A DNA stretch of 64,000 nucleotides. Origin: Candidatus Gemmiger excrementigallinarum (GTDB lineage: Bacteria > Bacillota > Clostridia > Oscillospirales > Ruminococcaceae). Shown piece by piece: positions 1 through 2,936 of this stretch. The translations under genes and the position numbers were made by a program. How positions within the stretch are numbered: the first letter of the stretch is position 1; every line of letters begins with the position of its first letter. The stretch is taken from assembly GCA_019116445.1 (NCBI GenBank), contig DXBP01000019.1:53913-117912 (forward strand). Reading direction: 5' to 3'. The notes below the pieces were generated by a model. It was not told where the DNA came from, searched no databases, and was given only the letters and a program-made list of their open reading frames with translations.

Positions 1-398
1 AATGCCTTGACCACCGAAGTCACAAAGGCATCCTGCCCCAGGACCCGGGTCTTGACCTTCTCTGCCACGCCGGAAAAATCCGCGCGGCCTGTGGGGGCCG
101 GCTGGGGCGTGGGGGCGGCCACGGTGCCGCCCAGCAACCCGTCCTGTTTCAGGGAGCGGGTCAGCTCACTGCTCATTTTGCGAACATGGTCGGCGGTTTC
201 GTGCCCGGCTTTCTGTACGGCATCCACTGCGGCAGAGGCCGCTGTCTGGCGCTTGCGGGCATCGTTCAAGGCATCCAGCTGGGCCTGCATCTGCTGTACG
301 GCATCGCTGGCCCGGGTGGAATCCTCGGGGGTGGCGGCGTAGTTCTTGCCACCCATCAGTCCGCGTACCCAGGCGTCATATTGCTCTTCAAGGCTCAT
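1..398 (-). CDS. AAA+ ATPase-like protein, N-terminal part, runs off left window edge
   Basis: Own translation from ATG at 398: MSLEEQYDAWVRGLMGGKNYAATPEDSTRASDAVQQMQAQLDALNDARKRQ...ADFSGVAEKVKTRVLGQDAFVTSVVKA. Open to the window edge; 'VLGQDAFVTSVVKA(F)' resembles the region before Walker A in Clp/AAA+ ATPases. Overlaps the upstream gene by 11 nt. Absent from the ORF track because there is no stop in the window. Confidence 0.6.
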   Translation of the reverse strand, partial: MSLEEQYDAWVRGLMGGKNYAATPEDSTRASDAVQQMQAQLDALNDARKRQTAASAAVDAVQKAGHETADHVRKMSSELTRSLKQDGLLGGTVAAPTPQPAPTGRADFSGVAEKVKTRVLGQDAFVTSVVKA

Positions 399-1551
399 CG
401 TCGTTCTCCCTTTCCGGGTGGGGCAGTTTTACGGTGTAAAAATCTTTCACACTGCATCCTGCGCGGCCGCCGCCTGCGCAGGCACAGGCACATGCGCAGC
501 TGGAAGCACAGGCGCAGGCACAGGTAAAGTGGTGATCGTTATTGCCGCCGCTTCGCCGTCCTACGCCACCGCCGCGGCTGGAACCACCGCCGGGCTGAAA
601 GTTCTTGGGCGGGTCGGTGCGATGATACCCCGGAGGGGGCGGTGCGGTACGGGCACGGCGGATGGTATGCACGCCGTTGGTGTACCAGAACCAGTCGCCC
701 GGGTCGATGCTGCCGCCGAAGCCGCCGCCCCAGGCAGGGGAACGGCCAAAGAGGTTTTTCCAGAGGATAAGCAGAAGCAGAACTGTGAAAAACAATACCA
801 GAAAAAGGTTGGCAAACAGGTCGCTGTAGTCTTTTTGCGGGGCGCCGTAATCCTCGGCGGTCATCTCGGCATCCGCGGCATAGCCTTCGGAATAGGTGAT
901 GGGAACCGTTACATGGACCTTGGCGGCCTGGCCGTGGGTCAGCGGACCGAAATCCCAGGTCAGGTAGTCGCCGTCCACACCGGTATTATCGGCCAAAAAA
1001 CCGTCGCCATTCTTCCAGCGGATCTGCATATCACCCACGCTCAGGTCATCGAACCAGCCGGGGGTAAAGGTGAAGTTGGCGGTGCCGTCGTCATTGCGGG
1101 TGAACAGATGGCTCTGATGCACCGAGAAGGCAAACTGCACGTTGCTCTCGCCGCCGTTTTCGGCGGCCACTTGGGGGGAGTAGTAGCGCCGGGCAAAAAC
1201 GACCTTGGCGTAGCTGCCGCCTTCGTCGGAATACTGCAGATCGGAGATGGTGTCGGTCAGGGGAGTCAGGTCCTCCACGTGGGAGTTTGCCAGACCGATC
1301 TTGACCCAGGAAAGATAATCGGTAACGCCGCCGTCGATGACCTGCCAGTCAATATCATAGGTGATATCGGCGGAACCGTCCTCCCGCAGATCCACGGTGA
1401 CAACATAACTGCGGATGTAGTCCATGTCGCCGTCCTCGGCATAGGGGGCCAGTTCGCTGTCTGCGGCAAAGACCGGCAGTGCCGTCAGCACACAGCAAAG
1501 CAAAGCCGCCAGCCACAAAGCACCGCGGCGCAGCAAAAGTGAATGTTTCAT
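388..1551 (-). CDS. Membrane protein, DUF2207-like N-terminal domain, TM segment, Gly/Arg-rich linker and C-terminal Cys-Ala repeat tail
   Basis: Signal-like N-terminus MKHSLLLRRGALWLAALLCCVLTALPVFA, DUF2207-like extracellular domain, TM 'LFANLFLVLFFTVLLLLILW', tail GGGSSRGGGVGRR...HHFTCACACASSCACACACAGGGRAGCSVKDFY. Start at 1551 chosen over the ORF-track start because of the signal peptide and ATGA overlap with the upstream gene. Confidence 0.75.
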   Translation of the reverse strand: MKHSLLLRRGALWLAALLCCVLTALPVFAADSELAPYAEDGDMDYIRSYVVTVDLREDGSADITYDIDWQVIDGGVTDYLSWVKIGLANSHVEDLTPLTDTISDLQYSDEGGSYAKVVFARRYYSPQVAAENGGESNVQFAFSVHQSHLFTRNDDGTANFTFTPGWFDDLSVGDMQIRWKNGDGFLADNTGVDGDYLTWDFGPLTHGQAAKVHVTVPITYSEGYAADAEMTAEDYGAPQKDYSDLFANLFLVLFFTVLLLLILWKNLFGRSPAWGGGFGGSIDPGDWFWYTNGVHTIRRARTAPPPPGYHRTDPPKNFQPGGGSSRGGGVGRRSGGNNDHHFTCACACASSCACACACAGGGRAGCSVKDFYTVKLPHPERENDDEP

Positions 1552-2936
1552 TGGCAGCCCTCCTGCAGGGGCGTAGTGCCCAGTTGGCAGCGGCGCTCCA
1601 TGGCGGCGCTGGTATTGCGGATAGAACTGCACGCCGGGCTGTGCCAGATGCGGTGCCAGGGCGTGCGCAGCAGATTGCCCAGCCCCGGACCGGAAAGCCA
1701 GCTCTGGCAGGGCAGCACGGTGCCGTCAGGCCCCACCGCCATGTTGGAAAGGCAGGCGCCGCAGCTGGGAATCTGGGTAAAGCCCAGTTCCCGCAAGGTT
1801 TCTTCCGCCAGCCAGCCGGGGCTGGTGAAGTTGATCTCCATGCCGTGAGCAGCTGCATACTCCATGGCGGGGCGCAGCACCGCCACCAGTTCGTCGGGGG
1901 TCAGCCGTTCAGCGCGGCTGGCTTCGGTTTCGGCATTGCCGGCAGGAATCAGACCGCTGCAGGTCAGATACCGGATGCCCAGTTCATCGGCCAGCTGCAC
2001 GGTGGAAAGATAGTCCCGGTTCAGGCTGCACAGCGGGGTGTTCAGGCTGACGTTCAGCCCGGCGGCCAGGGCGTTTTTGATGCCGCCCAGGGTATCGGTA
2101 TAGCCGTCCACGCCTACCAGGGCATTGTGCACGGCAGCATCGGCGGAATAGAAGGTGATCTGCACCGCGTCCAGGCTGGCATTTTTCAGATCTTTGCACA
2201 TGGCGCTGGTCAGCATACGGCCGTTGGTATTCAGCCGGGTCACAAACCATTGGGCAGCCTGCACCAGTTTGATCAGGTCATTGCGCAGCGTGGGTTCGCC
2301 GCCGGTAAAGGTCAGCTGGGGAATGCCTGCGCTGCGGCATTTTTCAATGACGGCCAGCCACTGGTCGGTATCCAGTTCCGGGGCAATGCCCAGCGGCTGA
2401 TTGGCCGCATAGCAGTGCAGACATTTCTGGTTGCAGTGCCAGGCACCGTCCTTCATCATGGAACTGATCATCAGGTCCATGCGGTGAGGGGCGTTCATCC
2501 GGGGAGCATACTCGCCCAGATGCAGGGGCTGTACATGCAGCGGCGGAGTTTCACCCCGGGCTACTGCAAACAGACAATCCAGCATCAGCTGCAGGTCGGA
2601 CTCGATCTGCAGCTCCGGTGTGCGTCGGTATACCTTGTGGGTGGCGGCCACAGCCTGTGCAGTCACGGCGGACCAGTCGGCCTGCGTCAGTTCCTTGCCG
2701 CTCTGGGGATGCAGCGCCTCGATCAGATTGGTCAGCAGGATGGCCCAGCTCACGTTGAGGGGCAGAATGTCCTGGCCGTTGAGAATGGCCACAAAAGGCG
2801 TTTCGCGGTCAGGTTTGTGGCAGGGGATCAGGTGGATGCGCACCACACCGGGGCCGTCGGGGTCCAGGGTCACATGCCGCACACGGGAAAGATGCCCGTG
2901 CAGAAAGGCGTGTTCCGCATAGGTCAGATATTTCAT
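1548..2936 (-). CDS. Radical SAM protein with SPASM-like C-terminal cysteines, putative peptide maturase
   Basis: CNQKCLHC (CxxxCxxC) radical SAM motif, TFTGGEPTLR, and C-terminal CGACLSNMAVGPDGTVLPC...C...C typical of SPASM/twitch domains. Confidence 0.85.
   Translation of the reverse strand: MKYLTYAEHAFLHGHLSRVRHVTLDPDGPGVVRIHLIPCHKPDRETPFVAILNGQDILPLNVSWAILLTNLIEALHPQSGKELTQADWSAVTAQAVAATHKVYRRTPELQIESDLQLMLDCLFAVARGETPPLHVQPLHLGEYAPRMNAPHRMDLMISSMMKDGAWHCNQKCLHCYAANQPLGIAPELDTDQWLAVIEKCRSAGIPQLTFTGGEPTLRNDLIKLVQAAQWFVTRLNTNGRMLTSAMCKDLKNASLDAVQITFYSADAAVHNALVGVDGYTDTLGGIKNALAAGLNVSLNTPLCSLNRDYLSTVQLADELGIRYLTCSGLIPAGNAETEASRAERLTPDELVAVLRPAMEYAAAHGMEINFTSPGWLAEETLRELGFTQIPSCGACLSNMAVGPDGTVLPCQSWLSGPGLGNLLRTPWHRIWHSPACSSIRNTSAAMERRCQLGTTPLQEGCQ

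Follow-up and report, generated by a model that had tools for sequence, protein, structure and literature searches.

Most of the known thioether chemistry of radical SAM enzymes concerns small peptides, which are cleaved off and exported. The sactionine bond is a thioether between a Cys sulfur and a C-alpha, and SkfB is the maturase that forms it in the sporulation killing factor. The donors and acceptors of known sactipeptides lie in separate parts of a hairpin. SkfB combines an RRE, a barrel and a twitch domain, the last of which contains a [2Fe-2S] cluster, and Ala is a known sactionine acceptor, as in Trn-beta (Ala25) and RumC1 (Ala12) (PMC8172795). RumMC carries the full SPASM motif CX13GX4CX36CX2CX5CX2CX18C (PMC8188230). 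Repeat-substrate radical SAM systems, among them those with the TVGG repeats of TvgA or with Asp-Cys repeats, involve small peptides (PMC9062424). DUF2207 proteins, such as SMU.243 of S. mutans, are predicted to have an extracellular N-terminal part, a transmembrane (TM) segment and an intracellular Gly-rich C-terminus (PMC10457818).

The window analysed in this study, the whole stretch of 64,000 nucleotides of DNA, carries two adjoining minus-strand genes, for an enzyme (1548-2936) and a membrane protein (388-1551), which would form a two-gene, RiPP-like protein-modification system. The gene pair suggests an undescribed modification, in which the tail of the membrane protein would most likely be stapled by sulfur bridges. 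The gene of this protein, the proposed substrate, is an open frame of 387 codons, in which the original prediction had placed a Cys-Ala tail behind a TM segment and a linker rich in Gly and Arg. Translation confirmed the tail: the reverse complement of 445-528 reads exactly FTCACACASSCACACACAGGGRAGCSVK, with eight Cys and eight Ala, and corresponds to residues 342-369 of the 387-aa protein. The protein begins with a signal peptide or N-terminal hydrophobic helix (residues 1-30, 1462-1551; helix 3-30 in the structure model), which is followed by a DUF2207-like all-beta ectodomain (residues 44-236, 844-1422), one TM helix (residues 242-268, 748-828, according to the structure model and the TM/charge analysis), a Gly/Pro/Arg linker and the tail, which its sequence, conservation and selection mark as the proposed core of modification. 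The last 18 residues form a C-terminal follower, DFYTVKLPHPERENDDEP (391-444), with D/N-F-Y-x-T/V-x-L kept in most clades, not all. The Cys-Ala tail has low confidence in the structure model. Its codons are mixed (TGT and TGC for Cys; GCC, GCT and GCA for Ala), and it is indeed not a simple nucleotide microsatellite, as had been predicted. No Rfam RNA was found in the window.

Pfam DUF2207 (PF09972) matched the ectodomain of the window protein with 16.5 bits, below the gathering score of 24.4, which leaves the protein outside the family; 7 of 58 relatives matched the model at E ≤ 0.01. In the fold search the ectodomain resembled ribophorin I and the M1 aminopeptidase N-domain, and no function follows from either. 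The tail side of the TM helix was the more positive one in 49 of 58 members, and in 29 of the 58 members of alignment A2, including Lachnospiraceae such as L171 and L172, the segment that joins the TM helix to the tail contains a zinc ribbon, CxxCG..CxxCG. On the strength of this charge bias and of the zinc ribbons, and in line with what is predicted for DUF2207 proteins, the tail is predicted to face the cytosol, and it would thus be within reach of the radical SAM enzyme. The C-termini of canonical DUF2207 proteins sampled from the class contained no Cys-Ala dyads and were mostly Gly/Ser. Beyond the weak DUF2207 match and the zinc ribbons, NCBIfam and Pfam contained no family for the tail protein.

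When one genome per GTDB species was searched with the pattern C[AGV]C[AGV]GGG[RS][AGV]GC, at least 120 stretches were obtained. With four exceptions, the matches listed appear to belong to one and the same system; these four (L093, L106, L110 and L159) look like chance pattern matches and were rejected as tail loci. The hosts among the matches listed belong to Lachnospiraceae, Oscillospiraceae, other Clostridia, Acholeplasmatales/Anaeroplasma/Bacilli and Eggerthellaceae, and Gemmiger formicilis ATCC 27749 and Hungatella hathewayi WAL-18680 are found there as well. The hosts of the tail system among the matches listed are anaerobes, mostly from gut and rumen.

The comparison of homologous tails strongly supported the predicted selection at the protein level. 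Over 147 tails, the last four dyads had Cys at 588 of 588 and Ala at 587 of 588 positions, counts in which dyads 3 and 4 were left free by the search pattern, and the last two dyads, like GGGRAGC, are biased by it, most loci having been collected with this motif-containing pattern. The 30 Gemmiger homologues were collected without the pattern and hence lie outside its bias: in a whole-protein search within the same genus, the tail was kept in all 30 homologues placed in loci. The check that had been suggested, conserved spacing and dN/dS of homologous tails, was run as uncorrected pN/pS over all pairs of the Gemmiger homologues and gave 0.071 for the tail, 0.535 for the ectodomain and 0.584 for the linker; these are raw proportions with synonymous sites near saturation, and they serve to compare the regions with one another rather than as calibrated dN/dS values. 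The pS values were 0.61, 0.54 and 0.51 for the tail, ectodomain and linker, respectively. Since the pS of the tail was at least as high as elsewhere and its pN/pS was low, it is the protein and not the DNA that is conserved. Freely varying or absent cysteines in homologues, the observation named beforehand as refuting, were not found.

The tail core CACACACAGGGRAGC[ST]xK is almost invariant, the Lys of GGGRAGCxxK was present in 147 of the 147 tails that reach that position, and 16 of the 21 invariant columns of the 58-member alignment fall in the tail. The C[AVG] run before GGG comprises 4-7 dyads and is extended upstream by CASS, CVSS or CAHSS modules, with a total of 5-10 Cys per tail (odd in 62 and even in 85 of 147). 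The tails of L094, L060, L104, L133 and L161 stop soon after GGGRAGCSxK and have no KDFY stretch. This group of tails suggests that KDFY is probably not the main recognition element of the enzyme. In one genome (G664; L165 and L177) two tandem tail genes precede one enzyme, and the second of them has CACACAYACACA, a Cys-to-Tyr change with the register kept.

The radical SAM gene next to the tail gene was missing from the original prediction and is decisive for interpreting the tail. Its stop codon TGA overlaps the ATG of the tail gene (ATGA, in the context ..CAATGAAA..), and such a start/stop overlap usually indicates that translation is coupled. A member of this radical SAM family adjoins the tail gene in 123 of 124 loci with enough flank: the homologue lies directly upstream on the same strand in 118 loci, downstream in four and on the other strand in one (a second copy, L048). 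The sole tail locus of the 124 without the enzyme was L070, which lies in a 1.7-Mb MAG; the rest of this MAG did not yield the enzyme either. When 292 genomes of the class were searched with the enzyme profile (A1), the enzyme was detected in five; the tail pattern occurred in four of the same 292, all of them among those five, and the fifth (G657, locus L168) has a divergent enzyme copy whose partner gene is truncated by the contig end ahead of the tail. Because there are 17 radical SAM matches in all in the genome of the window, adjacency by chance is improbable.

According to neighbour clustering, only the enzyme and tail genes are common across lineages, outside Gemmiger and Fournierella, and no conserved protease, exporter or immunity gene was detected near the tail loci. 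In nine loci, of Gemmiger and Fournierella only, a gene for an AAA+ ATPase with Pfam AAA and AAA_lid_6 matches lies directly downstream of the tail gene, often overlapping it. In the window this is the start of a 684-aa CbxX/SpoVK-like ATPase (3-398, minus strand), which continues beyond the window and is seen in full at L163:8257-10311; it may be a lineage-specific third component. GGDEF-domain proteins and ABC ATPases occur near many loci in scattered positions and strands; they look like general paralogues and were rejected as conserved neighbours. The PADLOC matches reflected no more than general similarity to radical SAM (viperin) and AAA proteins, and the PHROGs matches were only general radical SAM, so that neither a defence system nor a phage origin was retained. 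In L111, L137 and L048 a radical SAM gene is accompanied by two or three tail genes, and some of their tail proteins have long extra N-terminal segments before the ectodomain. The enzyme copies of L168 and L174 (G723), both from draft genomes, contain one in-frame TAA and an in-frame TGA, respectively, reflecting either pseudogenes or assembly errors.

The first gene of the pair (1548-2936, minus strand), with a GGAGG Shine-Dalgarno-like sequence upstream, encodes a radical SAM/twitch maturase-like protein of 462 aa. Pfam Radical_SAM scored 67.8 bits against a cut-off of 29.5, which places the protein in the superfamily, and Pfam SPASM scored 34 bits, above its cut-off. NCBIfam gave no equivalog: the best model, NirJ2, reached 91.5 bits against a cut-off of 500, and the scores of the SkfB model TIGR04403 (46.6 of 300 bits) and the StsB model NF045574 (52.6 of 625) were also below their cut-offs. 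When the enzyme profile was compared with solved structures, SkfB was the best match (E 1.2e-22), followed by GDGT-MAS, PqqE, BtrN, SuiB, MoaA and CteB. The fold search of the AlphaFold model (pLDDT 93.3) against the PDB likewise placed SkfB first and SuiB next, with BlsE, CteB, TigE and PqqE close (CteB, TigE and PqqE within the first eleven). The model aligns with SkfB and SuiB over about 450 columns and with CteB over nearly its full length. The enzyme is thus kin to thioether-forming RiPP maturases.

In the N-terminal 130 residues of the model, strands are followed by three helices, which is the order of an RRE, and residues 20-126 (2559-2879) were designated a putative RRE-like domain; this region matched PqqD weakly by hhalign (37%), and Pfam PqqD gave no match in the protein. 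The enzyme alignment comprised 93 full-length homologues with 43-94% identity to the window protein, reduced to a non-redundant set of 81. The Cys of the CxxxCxxC radical SAM cluster motif (C168, C172 and C175; 2412-2435) were invariant in 81 of 81, as were C303, C392, C410 and C450; C436 was present in 74 of 81, and C395 was mostly conserved. The auxiliary-cluster region (1587-1763), recognised from the alignment and Pfam SPASM, contains C392-x12-G-x4-C410 and C450. The full SPASM pattern consists of CX9-15GX4C, then CX2CX5CX3C and a final C; here CX12GX4C is present and CX2CX5CX3C is absent, only C436 and C450 following, and because the full seven-Cys pattern is absent the enzyme is better labelled twitch-like. 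The invariant C303 (about 2028-2030, minus strand) is a barrel Cys outside the known cluster motifs; it could be a catalytic or cluster residue.

Judged from these sequence comparisons, the Cys-Ala tail is very probably the substrate of the radical SAM enzyme. We propose that the enzyme would use its RRE-like N-terminal domain to bind the membrane protein, translated together with it, at the cytosolic C-terminal tail, and that the CxxxCxxC cluster would make a 5'-deoxyadenosyl radical, which would abstract hydrogen from the tail alanines, most likely at C-alpha. The auxiliary cluster would then let neighbouring Cys thiols attack, and the product would be a run of Cys-S-C(Ala) thioether bridges stiffening the CACACACA-GGGRAGC tail. 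That the enzyme acts on the tail by thioether-type chemistry is somewhat favoured by us, and the chances that the reaction is Cys-Ala thioether formation appear about even. The latter is the best single guess because the two residues are equally fixed and, in the window, equally numerous (8:8), because Ala has precedent as an acceptor and because the enzyme with the closest structure makes sactionines. Since no protease or exporter is conserved, the modified tail is expected to stay on the membrane protein and not to be cleaved and exported, which we consider likely. Taken as a whole, the picture of a permanent modification, in which alternating Cys-Ala thioethers would staple the cytosolic tail like the rungs of a ladder and give it a structural or signalling role, is a tentative one. 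It is only a guess that the tail would form the stiff cytosolic part of a membrane sensor or scaffold.

The alternation of Cys and Ala counts against the thioether model, as known sactipeptides keep donors and acceptors in separate parts; to our knowledge, alternating donors and acceptors are not a sactipeptide layout. Moreover, the SkfB-like fold does not fix the reaction, SuiB, PqqE and anSME being near relatives with other chemistry. For these two reasons other radical chemistry is a serious rival: the enzyme could modify the tail by epimerisation, by C-C bonds at Ala, by oxidation of Cys to formylglycine, which is the reaction of anSME, or otherwise. The occurrence of SuiB, PqqE and anSME beside SkfB and CteB among the fold and profile neighbours agrees with this, as does an auxiliary-cluster Cys pattern without the full SPASM set. 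However, Cys and Ala are both invariant in the dyads and SkfB is best by both methods, which favours Cys-to-Ala bonds, and we regard non-thioether chemistry as rather unlikely. The regular crosslinks of the original prediction are plausible as such, but are unlikely to be disulfides: a disulfide ladder is disfavoured by the predicted cytosolic topology, the anaerobic hosts and the odd Cys number of 62 of 147 tails.

An unmodified, metallothionein-like tail that binds metal or Fe-S clusters through its CxC motifs, with the enzyme loading it or acting elsewhere, appears improbable. CxC motifs do bind metals, and many relatives also carry the zinc ribbon between the TM helix and the tail. However, the middle residue of metallothionein-type CxC motifs varies, whereas here it is Ala in 587 of 588 dyads; the total of 5-10 Cys has no fixed set, and the near-strict radical SAM pairing and the Ala invariance would be left unexplained. 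Less probable still is that the tail is a true RiPP core, modified, cut off and released from a membrane protein that is only its carrier. In favour of such a core, only the last ~35 residues are extremely conserved and the remainder of the protein diverges, but the neighbourhood lacks any conserved protease, exporter or immunity gene, the tail is predicted to be cytosolic, and a signal peptide with an ectodomain would be an odd leader. Repeat lengths do vary between relatives, which could recall a functionless low-complexity or microsatellite expansion; yet the protein sequence is fixed even though its synonymous sites approach saturation, and the same tail occurs across phyla. The codon mixture, the pN/pS values and the dyad invariance rule out a microsatellite or chance repeat with near certainty.

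Neither NCBIfam (June 2026) nor Pfam has a model for either family beyond general domains, and nothing was found on the tail, Cys-Ala repeats or radical SAM enzymes with DUF2207 in the open-access literature, the search having covered neither subscription papers nor preprints. In many gut anaerobes, the same kind of enzyme that is known from small exported peptides appears here to be linked to a membrane protein, at its end. If the proposal is true, it implies that proteins can be permanently modified in a way that forms a new class and is widespread among anaerobes of gut and rumen from several bacterial lineages, and would provide a handle on DUF2207-like proteins together with a compact two-gene system for stapled protein tails. 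The regularity of the Cys-Ala target (8:8 in the window) makes the reaction directly testable by co-expression.

Among known systems, SkfB/SkfA offers the closest solved structure by profile and by fold, with a radical SAM barrel, a twitch-like C-terminus and, putatively, an RRE-like N-terminal part in common. In contrast to SkfA, the proposed substrate here is no small peptide but forms the C-terminal end of a membrane protein of ~390 aa. Neither a protease nor an exporter is conserved, and the enzyme scores far below the SkfB NCBIfam cut-off. With ruminococcin C/RumMC and other sactipeptides, the pair shares a dedicated radical SAM enzyme beside a Cys-rich substrate in which Ala is a possible acceptor (PMC8172795), whereas compared with RumMC the enzyme has only CX12GX4C and C450 (mostly also C436), and donors and acceptors alternate. 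RiPP clusters have a short precursor with a leader and a protease and/or exporter; here, the partner is a membrane protein of ~300-500 aa and two genes are conserved. The nearest published idea is that of the repeat-substrate radical SAM systems with different motifs (PMC9062424): a short repeating motif lies beside a radical SAM enzyme in both cases, but the TvgA and Asp-Cys systems have another motif and small peptides, with dioxygenase, transporter or recombinase partners. Compared with DUF2207 (PF09972) proteins, the tail protein is shorter, scores below the Pfam cut-off and has a Cys-Ala tail instead of a Gly/Ser one, while it shares with them the predicted layout of an extracellular N-terminal part, a TM segment and an intracellular Gly-rich C-terminus.
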